Shown one piece after another: positions 15,994 to 64,000 of a stretch of DNA of 64,000 nucleotides. The notes under the pieces were generated by a model, which saw only the letters and a program-made list of their open reading frames with translations, was not told where the DNA came from and did not search any database. The stretch covers positions 5,208,001-5,272,000 of the forward strand of contig NC_009441.1 of NCBI RefSeq assembly GCF_000016645.1, read 5' to 3'. Source of the stretch: Flavobacterium johnsoniae UW101 (GTDB lineage: Bacteria > Bacteroidota > Bacteroidia > Flavobacteriales > Flavobacteriaceae). The first letter of the stretch is position 1; each line of letters begins with the position of its first letter. A program made the position numbers and the translations under genes.

Positions 15994-16908
15994 ATGAAAA
16001 AATTAGTTTATTTTTTGATAATTCCCCTTTCCTATTTTTCGGCTCAAGCGCAAACTACTGCCGAAATAACTAAAGAAAATACTTTAACTGAAACTCAAAA
16101 CGACGACAGAAAAATTCAGGATTATCAGCCTGATGATCTGCCGTGGCACGGAAGAAGGTTTAAAGCTACAGCAGGTGCTTTTTTTCCTGTAAACAATACC
16201 GAAGTTGAAGTGAATGGAACAAACGGCAGAATTGGAACTGATATTGATTTTGAACGTGATTTAGGTTTTCAAAACAATACGGTTTCCTTTTTTGGAACTT
16301 TTGAATGGCGTGCTTCCCGCAGATCCCGTTTTAATCTGGAATATTTTTATTTAAAAAGAAATTCAACAAAAACGCTTCAAAAAGAAATTGAATTTAAAGA
16401 TCATGTGTATCCTGTTAACGCCGAGGTTGCGGCTTTTATGGATAATCAGATGATTCGGTTTGCTTATGGATATGCTATTGTTTCTAAACCGAAATATGAA
16501 CTGGGTTTATTAATAGGTGCTCACATAATGCTTGCCGATGTTGGAATTGGACTGGCAGGAAACACAATACAGGCACAATATAGAGACAACGTTGATTTTA
16601 CTGCTCCGCTGCCTGATATTGGAATCTGGGGCGAATTTGTACTCGGAAGAAAAGTGGGTTTATATGCCAACCTAAATTATTTTGCCTTAAAAATAGATGA
16701 TATAGACGGCCGAATTGTGAGTTATAATTTATCGGTTTTGTATAATGTATATCAAAATTTTAGTTTAACTGCCGGATACACCGGATTAAATTTTAGAGTT
16801 GATGTTGCCAGACCAAAAATTGACGGTTTTTTTAAATGGGGTTATAACGGACCAACTATTGCTGCAACATATAGTTTTGGAAATCATGTGAAGTTTTATA
16901 AACACTAA
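15994..16908 (+). CDS. Outer-membrane beta-barrel protein
   Basis: The start at 15994 gives a clear signal peptide (MKKLVYFLIIPLSYFSAQAQ). The mature part is rich in alternating aromatic/glycine strands such as FFGTFEWRASRRSRFNLEYF and NFSLTAGYTGLNFRV, and the C-terminus ends in an amphipathic strand. It therefore should sit in the outer membrane. The function is not recognisable. Confidence 0.7.
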   Translation: MKKLVYFLIIPLSYFSAQAQTTAEITKENTLTETQNDDRKIQDYQPDDLPWHGRRFKATAGAFFPVNNTEVEVNGTNGRIGTDIDFERDLGFQNNTVSFFGTFEWRASRRSRFNLEYFYLKRNSTKTLQKEIEFKDHVYPVNAEVAAFMDNQMIRFAYGYAIVSKPKYELGLLIGAHIMLADVGIGLAGNTIQAQYRDNVDFTAPLPDIGIWGEFVLGRKVGLYANLNYFALKIDDIDGRIVSYNLSVLYNVYQNFSLTAGYTGLNFRVDVARPKIDGFFKWGYNGPTIAATYSFGNHVKFYKH

Positions 16909-16920
16909 AAAAAATTAATG

Positions 16921-16943
16921 GTGAATTGTGAATTGTGAATTAT
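16921..16943. repeat. GTGAATT heptamer tandem repeat
   Basis: Three tandem copies of GTGAATT follow the beta-barrel gene. It is a simple-sequence tract with no other feature. Confidence 0.6.
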
Positions 16944-16977
16944 ATGATGAAACTTCAAAATTAGATATGAATATATG

Positions 16978-17076
16978 CCGCTCCTACGGAGCTTTTATTA
17001 TCTACTTTTATTATTTTCTACAAATATTGAGCTCCTGCCGGAGCTATGTAATGACTTAATAATTGTAGAAAATAAT
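16978..17076. repeat. REP-like element with GCTCC-GGAGC palindromes
   Basis: GCTCCTACGGAGC (16980-16992) and GAGCTCCTGCCGGAGCT (about 17029-17045) are short palindromes. The second is nested inside a 14-bp inverted repeat built on TTTTCTACAA (17010-17023 and 17063-17076). A relative with the same TTTTCTACAAATATT flank is found at about 29133-29215. Confidence 0.7.
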
Positions 17077-17183
17077 CTATAGGAAATCTACAACCGTAAT
17101 GTATAACACTCTTGGCGTGCTTTGCGGTTAAATAAAACGGTAAACCTGAAACTTTAAATCTGAAACAAAAAAATAAAAAAACA

Positions 17184-17213
17184 AACCCGACATCTTTTGC
17201 AAGATATCGGGTT
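17184..17213 (-). terminator. Terminator of the polysaccharide locus
   Basis: AACCCGACATCTT / AAGATATCGGGTT form a 13-bp stem with one mismatch. On the minus strand it is followed by a T-rich tail, placing it downstream of the GH97 gene. Confidence 0.8.
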
Positions 17214-17255
17214 CATTCACTTAAACTTAACTTAACTCAAAATAAACTCAACTAC

Positions 17256-19274
17256 TTATTTCTCGATTGGAGTAAATTTTATAGCTGTTCCTCCTCCAGC
17301 TGCCAATTTGATGTTTAAAACGCTTTTGTTATTTACTTTTTGCTTAGAGATTGCAACCGGGTATGGATTTGTTTTGTAATTCGCTCCGCTGCCGTCAGCA
17401 TAGATTTCGGCTTCGTATTCTTTTCCGGCATCTAAGAATGATAAAGCAACATTTAGATCTCTTGCATTTTGGTTGGTAATTGATCCTAAATACCAGTTTT
17501 TCTCATCCCAGTCTTTACGCGCAATTGTAGTGTATTCTCCAATTTTAGAATCTAAAACTTTAGTATCAGACCAGGTGCAAGGCACATCTTTTATGAACTG
17601 AAATTCAGGTTTGCCAACATAATTTTCCGGTAAATCTGATGCCATTTGCAATGGGCTGAAAATGATAACATACAATGCTAATTGGTTTGCCAGGGTTGTC
17701 TGTACTCTTGCTCCAGAAGGTGTTTTGTAATCAAAATTGAAATTCCCCGGAGTGTAATCAAACGGACCTGAAAGCATTCTTGTAAACGGTAAAGTTGTTA
17801 AATGCTGCGGCGTGTTTCCGCCGTCTACAGACCATGCGTTGTATTCCTGCCCTCTTCCGCCTTCCTGAGACATAAAGTTTGGATAGGTACGCTGTAATCC
17901 TGTTCCTTTTATTGGCTCGTGATTATCGATCATGATGTGATATTTGGCCGCAGTTTCGATCACTTTTCTGTAATGACGAGATGCATACTGGCTGTCATGC
18001 CATTCTTTTTTATCCAAATATTTGTTTACATAACCTGTTTTAACTGAATTCACGCCCATTTTTTGATACAATTTAAAAGCATCTTCTAATTGGCTTTCAT
18101 AATGTTTAGAAGCACCTGCTGTTTCGTGATGTCCTATTAAACGAACATTTTTCATGGCAGCATATTTTGTAATTTCTTCCAGATTAAAATCAGGATATGC
18201 TTTTACAAAACTAAATGCACTTCCGTCGGCAGTCCAGTCGCCGTCCCAGCCCTCGTTCCAGCCTTCAACCAGAACGCCGTCAAAATTGTTTTTCGCAGCA
18301 AAATCAATATATTCTTTTGTATTTTTTGTTGTAGCACCATGTTTAGGCCCTTGTCCCCAAGTGAATTTTTCTAAGTGCATTCCCCACCAGATTCCAATAT
18401 ATTTAGAAGGTGTAATCCAGGAAAGATCTTCAATTTTTGAAGGTTCATTTAAATTCAGCATGATCGTGGAAGTTGCAACCTCTCCCGGATTCTCACCCAC
18501 AACAACTGTTCTCCAAGGTGTTTTAAATGGAGTTTCAGCATATACTTTTACTCCGTCTGCCCACGGCACTAAATCACTTTTGTATTGTTTGTCGCTTGTT
18601 TTTAAAAGTGTCATCGAAGCAAAATCAGTCAAATTAGCCTCATGAATTGCTACATACAATTTATTTTTTGTTTCAAAAGTAGCCGGCGTATTAATTGTAT
18701 CGGTTTTACTTATAGGAGTTTTACGGTATTCACTTTCGTAATAACTATTTTCGCGGTGTACCGGAATCCACCAAACGTCGTTGTTATCTTTAAAAGTAAA
18801 TTGCGTGATTTCATTCGAGATTTTCACTTTACCTAAATTAGGCTGTTTTGGAAATTCATATCGAAATCCTAAACCATCATCAAAAACTCTGAAAATAATA
18901 TCTACTAAACGCTCTTCTCCTTTTGATTCTTTTAAATGAACAATCAATTCGTTGTGGTGATCGCGGACTTTTTTGAATTCTCCCCAAGGCTGTTCCCAGG
19001 TTTCATCTGCAGATTTTTCTTCGGTAGAAACGACTTCAAAACCGTCGGTCATTTTTTGAATTCCCTGAAATTCAAATCCTAACAAAGAGGGTTCTATAAC
19101 CGATTTTCCGTTTTTAGAAAAGCTGTATTGAGGCTGTCCTGAAGGTGTTAATTCAAAAATTAATTCGGTGACTTTTCCCGGCGAGTTGATTTTATATGTT
19201 TTTTTAGTACTGCAGGCAAAAAGAAGCATTGAAGCTAAGGCGATTATACAGTATCTATATCTTATGTTTCTCAT
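17256..19274 (-). CDS. GH97 family alpha-glucosidase (SusB-like), lipoprotein
   Basis: A 672-residue protein with a lipobox ending in Cys21 (MLLFAC). It has the three-part GH97 layout: N-terminal beta-supersandwich, a central (beta/alpha)8 barrel (about residues 290-560) and a C-terminal beta domain. Conserved blocks include FDGVLVEGWNEGWDGDW, GVNSVKTGYVNKYL, IDNHEPIKGTGLQRTYPN and SQEGGRGQEYNAW. In the SusB-type inverting branch a Gly occupies the nucleophile position of the retaining branch. The KTGYV block here has Gly, so inverting alpha-glucosidase activity is inferred. It is the last gene of the locus, 25 bp after the GH99-like gene. Confidence 0.9.
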   Translation of the reverse strand: MRNIRYRYCIIALASMLLFACSTKKTYKINSPGKVTELIFELTPSGQPQYSFSKNGKSVIEPSLLGFEFQGIQKMTDGFEVVSTEEKSADETWEQPWGEFKKVRDHHNELIVHLKESKGEERLVDIIFRVFDDGLGFRYEFPKQPNLGKVKISNEITQFTFKDNNDVWWIPVHRENSYYESEYRKTPISKTDTINTPATFETKNKLYVAIHEANLTDFASMTLLKTSDKQYKSDLVPWADGVKVYAETPFKTPWRTVVVGENPGEVATSTIMLNLNEPSKIEDLSWITPSKYIGIWWGMHLEKFTWGQGPKHGATTKNTKEYIDFAAKNNFDGVLVEGWNEGWDGDWTADGSAFSFVKAYPDFNLEEITKYAAMKNVRLIGHHETAGASKHYESQLEDAFKLYQKMGVNSVKTGYVNKYLDKKEWHDSQYASRHYRKVIETAAKYHIMIDNHEPIKGTGLQRTYPNFMSQEGGRGQEYNAWSVDGGNTPQHLTTLPFTRMLSGPFDYTPGNFNFDYKTPSGARVQTTLANQLALYVIIFSPLQMASDLPENYVGKPEFQFIKDVPCTWSDTKVLDSKIGEYTTIARKDWDEKNWYLGSITNQNARDLNVALSFLDAGKEYEAEIYADGSGANYKTNPYPVAISKQKVNNKSVLNIKLAAGGGTAIKFTPIEK

Positions 19275-19299
19275 TATGTATTGGTATTAATTACGGCTC

Positions 19300-20544
19300 T
19301 TATTTTATTTCGTTTATTAACTGTTTTGCTTTTGCAGGCTGCATTGAAACAAAATAATTAAAAGCCTGATCCAGCTTGTTCTGAACATCGGCATTCCCTT
19401 TCTTTTCTACACGCAGATTGTACATTTTGCTTATTTCCGGAAAAACAGATTCGGTATTTTTAACTCCGGCAAATGCCTTTACTTTTTCGATATACGTGTA
19501 TCCAAATTCAACTGTAGGTTCGAACATTGTTCCTTCTCCAAAGTCATTCCATGTAATCAGCTGCAGATAATTTAAATTGGCATTTTTAGCTAATTCGAGT
19601 GTTGCATCCAGCGTTGCGCCATTGTTGTGTTCAATTGTCCATCCAATTGCTGCTCCGCCGCCGCCTTCGGCATAAAAATCTTTAAAACCAGGATAAGCAC
19701 TTCCCATAGCAACAGAAAGTTTTGGTTTTGTGTTGGTGTAATAATTCGTTAAGAAACTATTGTCTTTATAAACCCAGGCATATTCTCCAGCTGCATTTGC
19801 ACCAGCTTCTACAGACTGATCCCAAAGGGTTAAAAATGTAGGTTTTGTAGTTAATGTATTAAAAACATTCGTCCATTCAGCAGGTGTCTGCAATACAATT
19901 GGTCCAAAATTAAGCAGTAATGGTTTTCCGTCTACTTTAATGTAATTGGCATTATTAAAATAGTTTTTTTCCATGTAAGCCAAATCTGTTTTTGCAGCGC
20001 TGGTCACAGAAATTGCTTTTCCGGCATTTACCACATTTGTTGTAGTTCTGTCTTCATAAACTATGGCATATTCTAAACCAACTTTGTCCAGAACTGCAAT
20101 AAGCTGTTCTGTGTTTTCTTTTACCATTCGGTAATCGTTTACGTCGTAAGTTCCGTACCAATCGATTAAAATTCCATCGATTCCTGAATATTTCATCAAT
20201 AATAAATGATTTTCAATCACATTTTTATCGCCGGAATGATACGGTCCGATAAGAGGATAATAGTACGACGCAATTTCTCTGCGGTTATTTGCTCCTACCG
20301 TATTCGGGTTTTTGTTTGCCATTGTCCAATGGTAGCCCCATTTTTTATCGGCGCTGCTTTCATTGGTTTCAAACCATGGCATGTAATGAACATAAATTTT
20401 GGTGCTGTTTGTTTTTTCAATCGCAACCGGTTTAAGCGTTTCAGGTTTTACAGGCTCATCTGAACCTTTATCATCACTGCTGCAGCCAGAAACGACTAAA
20501 ATGTTCATTATCCCGAAAAACAATAATGTGATATATCTTTTCAT
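19300..20544 (-). CDS. GH99-like (GH71/99-type) lipoprotein
   Basis: A lipoprotein signal with Cys21 is followed by a Ser/Asp-rich linker, typical of surface lipoproteins in Bacteroidota. The catalytic-type domain has KIYVHYMPWFE, the IDGILIDWYG strand and LITWNDFGEGTMFEPT. The last corresponds to the WNExxEGT block that carries the catalytic acids in GH99 endo-alpha-mannosidases. It is likely a retaining-type glycan hydrolase on the cell surface, but several GH99-like clades lack a proven substrate. It is transcribed with susCD. Confidence 0.75.
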   Translation of the reverse strand: MKRYITLLFFGIMNILVVSGCSSDDKGSDEPVKPETLKPVAIEKTNSTKIYVHYMPWFETNESSADKKWGYHWTMANKNPNTVGANNRREIASYYYPLIGPYHSGDKNVIENHLLLMKYSGIDGILIDWYGTYDVNDYRMVKENTEQLIAVLDKVGLEYAIVYEDRTTTNVVNAGKAISVTSAAKTDLAYMEKNYFNNANYIKVDGKPLLLNFGPIVLQTPAEWTNVFNTLTTKPTFLTLWDQSVEAGANAAGEYAWVYKDNSFLTNYYTNTKPKLSVAMGSAYPGFKDFYAEGGGGAAIGWTIEHNNGATLDATLELAKNANLNYLQLITWNDFGEGTMFEPTVEFGYTYIEKVKAFAGVKNTESVFPEISKMYNLRVEKKGNADVQNKLDQAFNYFVSMQPAKAKQLINEIK

Positions 20545-61364: not shown

Positions 61365-61455
61365 GGCAGCCTCTCCCGCTTTGCGCTGTAATCTTTTGTG
61401 CCGGACCCCGGCAGAAACGGATTTCCGCTGCAATCGGGGCTGGAGAGAAGTATTC
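61365..61455. repeat. Dispersed flavobacterial repeat (CCGCTGCAATCGGGGCT type)
   Basis: A stretch with CCCGCTTTGCGCTGTAATC, GCCGGACCCCGGC and CCGCTGCAATCGGGGCT is much more GC-rich than its surroundings. I recognise it, from memory, as a repeat frequent between flavobacterial genes. Not coding. Confidence 0.5.
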
Positions 61456-61511: not shown

Positions 61512-61569
61512 GTTCAACACGGGTTTCATTGTTCGTGCTACGCACGCAACGAACCCTTAGCTGTTAGGT
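61512..61569 (-). repeat. attC-like 58-bp imperfect hairpin
   Basis: On the minus strand ACCTAAC (61569-61563; fits RYYYAAC) and GTTGAAC (61518-61512; fits GTTRRRY) bound a sequence with nested pairs GGGTT/AACCC, GTT/AAC and CGTGC-GTA-GCACG. Length and order match an integron attC site. The stop codon of the adjacent cupin-like gene is inside ACCTAAC. ACCTAAC and GTTGAAC pair only partly, so this remains a proposal. Confidence 0.5.
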
Positions 61570-62205
61570 GCCGGTTATTTGCGATCTTATATATTTAACA
61601 ATACTATTTGATACTTTTTGACTTTCATAAATATACTCATTTTCTCCATCGATTTCTCCAAATATTAAAGGAGTGGGGTTTTCAGGATTTTCGGAATATG
61701 TAATCGTAATACTCTCTCCAATTGCTCCACCAGAATGAATATGTTCTTTAGGGATTCTATAAAACTCTCCACAATTGATTATGGTACTACTAATTTTAAT
61801 TAGTTTATTTCCAATATTTGTCTTTGTTAATATTCTTTTATCAGAATTAATGTAGCTACCCTTATATTGATAGTAATTAATGTCTTCATCTTCCTTTAAA
61901 GCATATAATGTGTTTATAATTTGTCCCTTAACAACATAGCTGTTAACATCATAAAAGTGATTATGTTTATCCATAGATGAAGTTTGGATATTCGAAAATT
62001 TATTCCAAATATGTAATCTAATATTTTCTTTATTTTCAAACTCATGTAATCTACAATATATAAATCCTAACGGATGATACCTCAAATTTTGTTCTAAAAA
62101 ATCGGTATTTAAAAGATTATTTAAAATATGATTGATATTGTTTTTTATTTTAGCAATATTTTTTTCTTTATAAGAATCTCGTAAATTTTCATATAAATCT
62201 TTCAT
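61564..62205 (-). CDS. Cupin-like protein of the putative cassette
   Basis: 213 residues. The middle is a jelly-roll-like beta domain with histidines placed as in cysteine-dioxygenase-type cupins: LRYHPLGFIYCRL, SSMDKHNHFYDVNSYVVKGQI and GEFYRIPKEHIHSGG. The start ATG overlaps the TGA of the upstream gene (ATGA), so the two are translated together. The stop TAA lies in the boundary box. Metal binding is likely; function unknown. Confidence 0.6.
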   Translation of the reverse strand: MKDLYENLRDSYKEKNIAKIKNNINHILNNLLNTDFLEQNLRYHPLGFIYCRLHEFENKENIRLHIWNKFSNIQTSSMDKHNHFYDVNSYVVKGQIINTLYALKEDEDINYYQYKGSYINSDKRILTKTNIGNKLIKISSTIINCGEFYRIPKEHIHSGGAIGESITITYSENPENPTPLIFGEIDGENEYIYESQKVSNSIVKYIRSQITGT

Positions 62206-63119
62206 TTATAGGGATTATTGTTTTTATTGATAATTCCTGCGATTTCTATGAAATTTTTTTCCTCTAATTTTGAGTTGAAATGAAAATGTAAACAAATTTC
62301 CTCAATTTCACTTGGTTTGATTTCTTTAATATCAAGGTCTTGCATAACACAACGCATATCTAACTCTTCACATTGTTTTGCTACTTGTAATATTTCTTCC
62401 TTATATGTTTTGTATAAAAATGTGTCATTTGGAATCAATAATGCAAATTCCTTTTTATCTTCCTTTGTTACGACACAATTATTTTTGCTCAGATCAATAC
62501 GTAATGTAGAAAAAGTTTTTTTTAGAAAGATATCAACTTCTAACATCTGATTTAAACTTTTATGTATTACTGCATTACAAATAGTGGCAATGATTTCATT
62601 CCTAACATAATTAAGATTCCATTCATTTTTTGAAGAATTCAAACTATTCCTAAAGTTCGCATAACTTTTACATAGTTTATCATCCATCGGATCTATTAAA
62701 AGAATCTTAATTGTTTTATGCTCATTTTGAACTTTTGAATTTTTTGAAATTTTTGGGATAGTTTCAGCTCGAGTATATCTACCCGCTCCACCGGAAAAAT
62801 ACCAAAAATCTGTATTTAATTGATTTTTTGAAAAAATTTCATTCAAACGATTTGGGGCAATAATTTCATGTTTTTTCTCGGAACTAGGTACTTCAATATA
62901 AAATAAAAATAGTCCTATAAAGACTGATACAAATAATGAAGTTGTTAGATTATCGAGAATATTTTCAATATATTTTATATATTCAGGGGTTTCACTAGGG
63001 GAAATCGCGTGGTATTGAGGCATTACAAATATTCTAATTACCATAATCAATAAAAACAACAACGCAACTATTAGAAGAAAATGTTTACGATTTGTTTTGT
63101 GCTGTAAAAGTGCTTGCAT
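62202..63119 (-). CDS. Two-TM membrane protein with cytoplasmic domain, unknown
   Basis: The start is placed at 63119 (MQALLQHKTNRKHF); an upstream GTG at 63158 lies inside the boundary box and is less likely. Two helices (about residues 13-33 and 60-80) precede a soluble domain with FWYFSGGAGRYTRAETIPKI and IKILLIDPMDDKLCKSYANFR. I recall similar motifs in unnamed proteins near defence genes but cannot confirm a family. Paired by ATGA overlap with the cupin gene. Confidence 0.6.
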   Translation of the reverse strand: MQALLQHKTNRKHFLLIVALLFLLIMVIRIFVMPQYHAISPSETPEYIKYIENILDNLTTSLFVSVFIGLFLFYIEVPSSEKKHEIIAPNRLNEIFSKNQLNTDFWYFSGGAGRYTRAETIPKISKNSKVQNEHKTIKILLIDPMDDKLCKSYANFRNSLNSSKNEWNLNYVRNEIIATICNAVIHKSLNQMLEVDIFLKKTFSTLRIDLSKNNCVVTKEDKKEFALLIPNDTFLYKTYKEEILQVAKQCEELDMRCVMQDLDIKEIKPSEIEEICLHFHFNSKLEEKNFIEIAGIINKNNNPYK

Positions 63120-63153
63120 ATATATAATTTTATTCCTGATTTTGGTTTTAACT

Positions 63154-63182
63154 GGCACCTAACGTCAGTCTGTGAAAAAACC
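63154..63182. repeat. Cassette boundary box plus conserved arm (copy 1)
   Basis: GGCACCTAAC (63154-63163) is the exact inverse of GTTAGGTGCC at 61563-61572. It is followed by an arm at 63160-63181 identical to the copy at 63554-63575. Only one arm of the hairpin is present here. Confidence 0.65.
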
Positions 63183-63220
63183 TTCGTTTGTATTACCTCA
63201 AATATAATAAAAAAGTTGTG

Positions 63221-63511
63221 CTAAAACAGCCATTTTTGACCAGCGTGGTCGACCAGCTTGGTATCTTGGCGGTAGCCAAAATCCCAATCCCTGTAAAAGT
63301 TAATTTTATGGTTACCGGTACCTATAAAACTATTATTTACAATTTTTAAGTTTAATCCTTTAAAAATTGTCTTGTTTAATATATTTGCAGTTAAGCCCTC
63401 AAATATGTTCCCAATCGTTGGTGTATGGGTTATATCTTTTTCTTCTTGGTCAATTTTTGATAAAGCATTTTTTTTGAATTCTTCTAAAAAATCTGAAATT
63501 GTTGAAATCAT
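63221..63511 (-). pseudogene. N-terminal fragment of a DUF6602-like protein
   Basis: 96 residues. SDFLEEFKKNALSKIDQEEKDITHTPTIGNIFEGLTANILNKTIF matches, from memory, the N-terminus of DUF6602 proteins (usually about 250-350 aa). After residue 65 the sequence departs from the family and soon stops. The gene seems cut at a cassette boundary. An independent small protein is the alternative. Confidence 0.5.
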
Positions 63512-63544
63512 ATTTTATAAGACTATTTTCTTCGGTTTTTTTTA

Positions 63545-63673
63545 GGTTGCCGCTAACGTCAGTCTGTGAAAAAACTAAAATTACCCTCTTGAGAATCCCG
63601 TATTTGAGTTTTTTCTTTGGTAGCCCTCCGAATACTTCCTAAATTTTCAGAGGTTTTTTCACAGCCTGACGTT
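63545..63673. repeat. Long inverted repeat at cassette boundary (copy 2, two arms)
   Basis: A 21-bp arm (63555-63575, beginning AACGTCAGTCTGTG) and its complement with one mismatch (63653-63673) enclose 77 bp. The left side carries the box GCCGCTAAC. The layout is like a large attC site read on the minus strand. Confidence 0.65.
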
Positions 63674-63679
63674 CTCGCT

Positions 63680-63798
63680 CTACAAGCAGTTTGGGACTAA
63701 ATTAAGCCCATTATTCGGATTTGCCAAATCTTCCAAATACAAAACCAATTTCAAATTAAGCCTAATACCCAAATTGCTTGTAGCGTGTGTTATGTGGC
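63680..63798 (+). repeat. Second long inverted repeat with GTTATGTGGC box
   Basis: CTACAAGCAGTTTGGG (63680-63695) pairs with CCCAAATTGCTTGTAG (63768-63783) with one mismatch; the box GTTATGTGGC (63789-63798) follows. It is back-to-back with the repeat at 63545-63673 and precedes the plus-strand gene at 63895. Confidence 0.65.
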
Positions 63799-63894
63799 GT
63801 ACTTTATCAACCTAAACTTTTCCAAAGCACAAATGCATACATAATAGATATTAGATTCGTTTTTTCATATCTTTAATTTTTAATACAAGATAAA

Positions 63895-64000
63895 ATGAAC
63901 AATTCAAGAGGCTTATTATATCCTGCACTGCATAAATTTTATAGTGCCTTAAGCAGTTTAGAAAAATTTAAAAAAGGAACAAACTTCTTCGACAATATAA
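63895..64000 (+). CDS. Partial gene at right window edge
   Basis: An ATG at 63895 opens a frame to the window end (MNNSRGLLYPALHKFYSALS and on to FFDN). The start resembles unnamed hypothetical proteins of Bacteroidota that often lie in variable gene regions, from memory only. It is read away from the repeat pair. Confidence 0.45.
   Translation, partial: MNNSRGLLYPALHKFYSALSSLEKFKKGTNFFDNI

Follow-up and report, generated by a model that had tools for sequence, protein, structure and literature searches.

Can a genome that has no integron integrase (IntI) carry gene cassettes of the integron kind? The question is raised by positions 61,512 to 63,798 of a 64,000-nucleotide stretch of Flavobacterium johnsoniae UW101 (contig NC_009441.1, positions 5,208,001 to 5,272,000; this whole stretch is the window), for which an initial annotation, made from the sequence alone, proposed integron-like cassettes without integrase and possibly a distinct cassette system. 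Both proposals were borne out. No IntI scores over the cut-off in this genome (the same weak matches are obtained in all 14 control genomes), nor does it hold a member of the recombinase family described below at E 1e-40, and in relatives from the Bacteroidota such arrays lie behind a tyrosine recombinase family lacking the IntI-specific domain. Very probably the region is the distal portion of an integron-type array on the chromosome that has since decayed and belongs to a Bacteroidota family with its own recombinase.

Layout of the array

Positions above 64,000 continue the window frame beyond the window (genome stretch L009). The features are the following.

61512..61572 (-): short attC-like site of 61 bp that closes the array; R'' box GGCACCTAAC at 61572-61563, R' box GTTGAAC at 61518-61512
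61563..63163 (-): cassette B, 1,601 bp; own ends GTTAGGTGCC..GGCACCTAAC, 10/10 complementary
61564..62205 (-): 213-amino acid (aa) gene of cassette B, stop codon within the box
62202..63158 (-): 318-aa gene of cassette B, overlapping the 213-aa gene
63164..63183 (-): second 113-bp palindromic element, of which one end is left and the remainder deleted
63221..63557 (-): cassette A, beginning at GTTAGCGGC (63557-63549); 96-aa reading frame at 63221-63511
63558..63670: palindromic element of 113 bp, GTCAGTCTGTGAAAAAAC..GTTTTTTCACAGCCTGAC, splitting the attC crossover point between G and TT
63661..63798 (-): attC separating cassettes C and A, with the limits given by the attC model; site proper 63671-63798, R'' box GCCACATAAC
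63789-65190: cassette C, own complementary ends GTTATGTGGC..GCCACATAAC; the window holds 63789..64000
63895-65124 (+): 409-aa gene of cassette C, opposed to the array direction
65310-66670: cassette D, own complementary ends GTTGGTGGCA..TGCCACCAAC; genes of 170 and 265 aa

In minus-strand order the array runs from an attI-like site (66,771-66,668) through cassette D, an attC (65,319-65,181), cassette C, the attC at 63,798-63,671 with the inserted element, the truncated cassette A, cassette B and the last short attC. Three cassettes (B, C and D) are intact, each with perfectly complementary 10-nt ends of its own, and the far end and attC of cassette A have presumably been deleted.

The initial annotation had placed boxes and hairpins to within 1-2 bases of where we located them (five boxes: GTTCAAC at 61512-61518, GTTAGGTGCC at 61563-61572, GGCACCTAAC at 63154-63163, GCCGCTAAC at 63549-63557 and GTTATGTGGC at 63789-63798), and its unit of two overlapping minus-strand genes, with the last stop codon in the box, corresponds to cassette B. 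It had also seen neighbouring units in both orientations; further cassettes do exist, but they form one minus-strand array starting from the attI at 66.7 kb, within which the 409-aa gene is turned round, and not opposed arrays. Among the long inverted repeats taken to mark units, that at 63555-63673 is the 113-bp element and not an attC; it lies in the crossover point of the real attC at 63,671-63,798.

Significance of the array

Perfect 10-nt GTT..AAC complementary pairs spaced 250-4500 bp apart number 28 in the window and 23 in its reversed sequence, or 2 and 0, respectively, when at least 4 G/C are demanded among the 7 variable bases; one unit with complementary ends, seen alone, is not beyond chance. 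In context, however, the window array is far beyond chance, because there are two further self-complementary cassettes, independent attC matches and an attI match. The attC model was built from an alignment of 40 sites, none of them from this genome, and gives 101.6 bits (E 1.4e-21) at 63661-63798 and 125.1 bits (E 2.7e-27) at 65181-65319. The attI model was built from 15 loci of the same genus whose first cassette lies 98-107 bp behind the recombinase gene, all from other genomes, and matches at 66,668-66,771 with E 4.9e-11.

The hairpin at 61512-61572, proposed at first as a 58-bp attC, is a different case. Its boxes and position agree with that proposal and are what supports the site, but it folds ordinarily (z -1.03, with 33 of 200 shuffles equally good) and the attC model gives no match there. 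The Rfam gathering search of the window returned a Flavo-1 RNA and tRNA only, with no attC, and a strict regular expression (GTTRRRY/RYYYAAC plus an exact stem) proved too strict a pattern and matched nothing. A search for an empty site through the left flank of the array in 60 relatives yielded only the Hc1 gene and Flavo-1 copies, with no syntenic empty site.

Sites in related genomes

At E 0.1 the attC model matches 107 times across 28 loci, including the two good sites of the window array. Within the genus sample it matches in 106 of 121 genomes; further copies were also looked for in this genome and found, its matches comprising nine attC and three attI-like sites. The attC sites are mostly ~139 nt long (hairpins of 130-142 nt). 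Their long helix shows both-sided changes in 18 of 19 pairs, and 93.0% of its cells are paired versus 66.4% after shuffling and at most 44.9% after sliding, controls that are biased inasmuch as the structure was drawn from the same alignment. Covariation and fold stability together show sites able to fold as single-stranded hairpins, the bottom strand being the more stable in 38 of 50 (p 1.1e-4).

The boxes match across a cassette and not within a site: 58 of 70 consecutive site pairs agree at 6 or 7 of the 7 variable positions across the intervening cassette, where 2000 shuffles reach at most 9 of 70, and boxes within one site match in only 5 of 91. In integrons the consensus is RYYYAAC for R'' and GTTRRRY for R'. 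Here AAC and GTT are invariant in the alignment and the cassette B boxes fit GTTRRRY; GTTATGT, GTTGGTG and GTTAGCG do not. Cassette genes are oriented with the recombinase in 58 of 62 cases.

A recombinase family adjoining the arrays

A pattern taken from one hairpin, GCCACATAACG..GCTACA, matches twice in the 121 genus-sample genomes. One match lies in genome G109, in an array of 15 consecutive cassettes (16 when the other strand is counted). Every cassette has a box pair to itself, hairpins of ~120 bp separate them, and the array ends ~100 bp from a tyrosine recombinase gene. The family of this recombinase matches at E 1e-40 in 64 of the 121 genomes. Among 21 loci of the same genus the first cassette lies at most 400 bp behind the gene in 17 (15 at 98-107 bp, the others at 156 and 225 bp), and the remaining four, which have no chain there, show an attI-model match behind the gene. 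The attI of relatives thus adjoins the recombinase gene, which points toward it.

The association extends beyond the genus. In 41 further loci, hand-chosen across the phylum, chains of at least two cassettes occur in 24, in 19 of them no more than 1.5 kb downstream, whereas the reversed sequence gives a chain anywhere in 2 of 41. A separate named collection comprises 80 loci, of which the 63 with at least 1.2 kb behind the gene were counted. Here a chain lies downstream in 12 of 25 recombinases with an N-terminal domain versus 0 of 38 without it (Fisher p 1.9e-6), or, in a count made by hand, 12 of 14 versus 0 of 31 when at least 5 kb is available behind the gene; on the upstream side chains are seen in 0 of 25 and 1 of 29, respectively. 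An N-terminal domain of its own hence marks the array-bearing members of the family. Among the matches listed (up to 27 each), attC sites average 16.5 per genome in the 64 genomes with the recombinase versus 7.0 in the 57 without it (p 9e-8). The Bacteroidota family with new-recombinase arrays is widespread.

Some related proteins carry the generic NCBI name 'site-specific tyrosine recombinase/integron integrase'. Array-bearing recombinases of 455-584 aa occur among L116, L117, L123 and L137-L141, and that of L123 seems to hold more than one copy of the N-terminal domain. Plasmids of Klebsiella, Aeromonas and Acinetobacter encode relatives with 51-53% identity whose match to the query is confined to residues 99-347 or 127-347; one of them is annotated as TnpF. 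Thiamine diphosphokinase was considered as a common chromosomal neighbour and set aside, being within reach in 3 of 21 loci only.

Relation to IntI and Xer recombinases

The residues R204, K229, H294, R297, H320 and Y329, which we take to be catalytic, are invariant in 16 of 16 family sequences. The spacing between the K and the H is 103 in all 18 measurable IntI (of 21) versus 61-69 in the 52 measured out of 57 new-family and related sequences, and residues 185-242 of the IntI structure 2a3v align opposite 16 residues of the query recombinase. The TIGR02249 score is 198.2 bits, below the cut-off of 265, and in a quick tree (without bootstrap and with long outgroup branches) the 18 IntI form one side of a branch with a Shimodaira-Hasegawa-like approximate likelihood ratio (SH-aLRT) support of 100, the new family falling outside. 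The recombinase is hence not an IntI, as it lacks the IntI-specific insertion and branches outside the IntI clade. Because two defining integrase features were tested and neither was found, the system is by definition not a member of the IntI-type integrons.

Its core is nearest to XerA-type and archaeal Xer proteins: the G109 protein scores 219.9 bits with NF040815 (XerA type; cut-off 220), and the best PDB matches by sequence and by fold are 5hxy and 4a8e. The core domain is shared with these proteins, whereas the N-terminal domain and the adjacency to arrays are additions of the new family. In this domain an F, a W and a further W are nearly invariant, and its model has a beta-beta-alpha-beta-beta-alpha order with a mean predicted local distance difference test (pLDDT) score of 75.5. 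Matches to known domains are weak. Pfam HARP (PF07443) is found in 1 of 35 sequences at E 0.14 and DUF5710 in 10 of 35 (best 4.3e-4), while 3 of 4 single sequences have no Pfam match. PDB entry 4o66, the HARP fold of SMARCAL1, is reached at a profile E of 0.41 and ranks second in Foldseek with E 1.3, and no Foldseek match falls below E 0.57. The likeness to HARP is therefore a hint.

The system is like the IntI integrons, chromosomal and mobile (and like CALIN in IntegronFinder terms), in its arrays, whose cassettes mostly hold one gene, in the attC hairpins and their R''/R' boxes with AAC..GTT, in the self-complementary ends of the cassettes, in an attI beside a tyrosine recombinase and in G/TT breakpoints. 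It is unlike them in the N-terminal domain and other recombinase features given above, in the position of the array behind the 3' end of the gene, in boxes that keep GTTR but often not GTTRRRY, and in an attC mostly of ~139 nt. In Treponema chromosomal integrons the integrase gene is likewise read toward attI and has the same orientation as the cassette genes, but it encodes an IntI (PMC3607928). An Anaerolineales record (L270) has a cassette chain on the 5' side of the recombinase, as in classical integrons.

Traces of movement

The initial annotation had suggested comparing strains for cassette gain and loss at the G/TT position, and breakpoints on the boxes were indeed found. In G109 one cassette occurs twice, with 445 identical bases, behind attI and 10.4 kb away; identity begins at the G of GTT and stops at GTT, so that both ends fall at G/TT. 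In two Chryseobacterium plasmids a 2.17-kb stretch that runs through recombinase and attI is 91% alike, and from AAG/TT onward no likeness can be recognised. The duplication and the plasmid breakpoint look as would be expected from cassette exchange at G/TT.

Decay in this genome

Besides the window array, whose attI-like site belongs to stretch L009, attI-like sites were found at L177 (E 6e-14) and L025 (E 1.1e-3). These two are further decayed loci with attC, attI and recombinase stubs.

C1:4281079-4285004: decayed locus L025
C1:4354562-4355574: decayed locus L177

The stubs before these two attI sites are C-terminal pieces of the recombinase, one of 25 aa (57-68% identity) and one of 14 aa (79-86%). 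All three integron loci of this genome look decayed, and the attI of the window array suggests that a recombinase gene was lost there too. As this gene is gone from the genome, the window array should be frozen. The integrases of the integrative and conjugative element type encoded elsewhere in this genome (L001, L002 and L005) were considered as the missing integrase and belong to the wrong family.

Proposed mechanism and alternative explanations

With arrays of self-complementary cassettes, covarying hairpins, an attI, an adjacent recombinase and G/TT breakpoints, and without the IntI domain, the anatomy works like an integron. In intact relatives the tyrosine recombinase, encoded ~100 bp upstream and pointing at attI, most likely acts on the array, and would join a folded single strand of the attC hairpin to attI at G/TT. 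Cassettes would be circular, their two ends pairing with each other, and would be excised, shuffled and inserted behind attI. Catalysis of the exchange by the new recombinase and the choice of strand are read from this anatomy, and the N-terminal domain, standing in for the IntI domain, would help bind the hairpin. At about even chances we place a broader proposal, by which integron function would have arisen a second time: a Bacteroidota XerA-type recombinase without the IntI insertion would have gained an N-terminal domain (perhaps HARP- or DUF5710-like, of a class reading branched DNA) and hence recombine single-stranded attC hairpins, and a large range of integrons on the chromosomes and plasmids of the Bacteroidota would have been overlooked, explaining the homology-free capture seen in Riemerella as well.

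Several observations weigh against the decayed new-family array and its mechanism. Next to the window array, no remnant coding for a recombinase could be found. Boxes are mismatched in 12 of 70 neighbouring pairs, in several arrays, and the bottom-strand preference is a statistical one, 2 of the 3 testable window-array sites (61512 and 63.7-kb) folding equally well or better as top strand. Six of the ~41 phylum loci needed tolerant settings; among phylum-sample loci 13 of 31 with the N-terminal domain show no chain nearby, and L147, lacking the domain, has one. Furthermore, 18 of the 57 genomes without a recombinase match have at least 10 attC, six of them at least 20, which may reflect other recombinases, members under the hit limit or arrays outliving the gene. 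Recombination itself was not observed, movement being read from the comparison of sequences.

Could the array instead be the remnant of a classical integron (CALIN) that lost its IntI, the recombinase family next to the relatives' arrays being incidental? Its attC layout, its G/TT crossover and the ends of its cassettes match those of integrons, and classical IntI does occur over the cut-off in 93 of 345 phylum-sample genomes. These 93, however, include none from the genus, family or order of this genome and a single one from its class; this genome itself has no such IntI, its attI and recombinase remnants match the new family, and arrays begin at a fixed distance behind the new recombinase, so that we consider this explanation improbable. 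Still less probable is that the housekeeping recombinases XerC/XerD move the units by way of dif-like sites, as happens in pdif modules. The likeness of the recombinase core to XerA-type Xer proteins would suit it, but a dif site measures 28 bp and the sites here are covarying hairpins of 130-142 nt, with a box pair of its own for each cassette, and a dedicated recombinase carrying an additional domain directly adjoins the arrays; relatives without this domain have arrays downstream in 0 of 38. Repeats of miniature inverted-repeat transposable elements (MITEs) or insertion elements around unrelated genes could mimic cassettes, and the sites do contain the 113-bp palindromic element as well as IS110 elements, which explains one of the hairpins first noted. 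Yet boxes vary between cassettes while matching within a cassette, identical ends in all units are not seen, attC stems covary and an attI is present, which leaves this the most improbable of the explanations considered.

Implications for integron biology

The inserted IntI domain, by which integron integrases are distinguished from other recombinases, is stated to be essential for integron function in two papers (PMC8138268; PMC9668308), the first of which also gives the insertion as not fully conserved in that subgroup. A family that builds such arrays without it would mean that the domain is not the sole way to handle attC. Detection through IntI profiles must miss these integrons, since attC matches pervade the genus (the 106 genomes above) and its members in the phylum sample have no classical IntI. 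The new family is also a candidate mechanism for gene capture in the Flavobacteriales, and allows a direct test of how hairpin recombination evolved.

In Riemerella anatipestifer, of the same order, homology-independent uptake of aph(3')-IVb involves a unit of 27 bp 5', the gene and 140 bp 3' with a stem-loop called attC-like (PMC13148043, 2026), alike in its stem-loop and in inserting without homology. In the accessible text of that paper the authors name no recombinase and call the capture mechanism not fully elucidated. An account of the present cassette system was not found in the literature searched, a search outside whose scope lay most subscription journals and bioRxiv.

Cassette genes and insertions

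The 213-aa protein has no Pfam or PADLOC match and the 318-aa protein no Pfam family above the cut-off, the latter gene being present in 1 of 121 genus-sample genomes, that is, in this genome alone. Concerning a defence function, PADLOC has no match for 5 of 6 cassette proteins; the LeoBC match of the 265-aa protein (E 0.0071) was judged noise. Directly outside the far end of the array lies the Flavo-1 RNA (Rfam RF01705, 60.1 bits) at 61368-61445 (-), a part that matches at least 7 other places in the genome.

The 113-bp element holds no genes, and several other genomes, as well as a Chryseobacterium plasmid, have it at the identical crossover point. There are five copies in L061 (16844-19931), two of them in tandem (G112), and others in L068 and L077 (23824). 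The element is perhaps a mini-cassette or else a separate MITE. Classical integrons are known to carry IS110 elements and group II introns within their arrays. Here, an IS110-family transposase (Pfam) lies inside an attC of G112 (L061 15612-16613), and the plasmid array L077 carries an annotated IS110 element and a group II intron (16299-17300 and 18765-20081). Finally, a 2.34-kb repeat that encodes a 328-aa tyrosine recombinase of its own begins exactly at an attC-like AACAGC in three genomes (L145 3576-5918 and 8186-10528; L061 12440-14771; L065 11135-13470).
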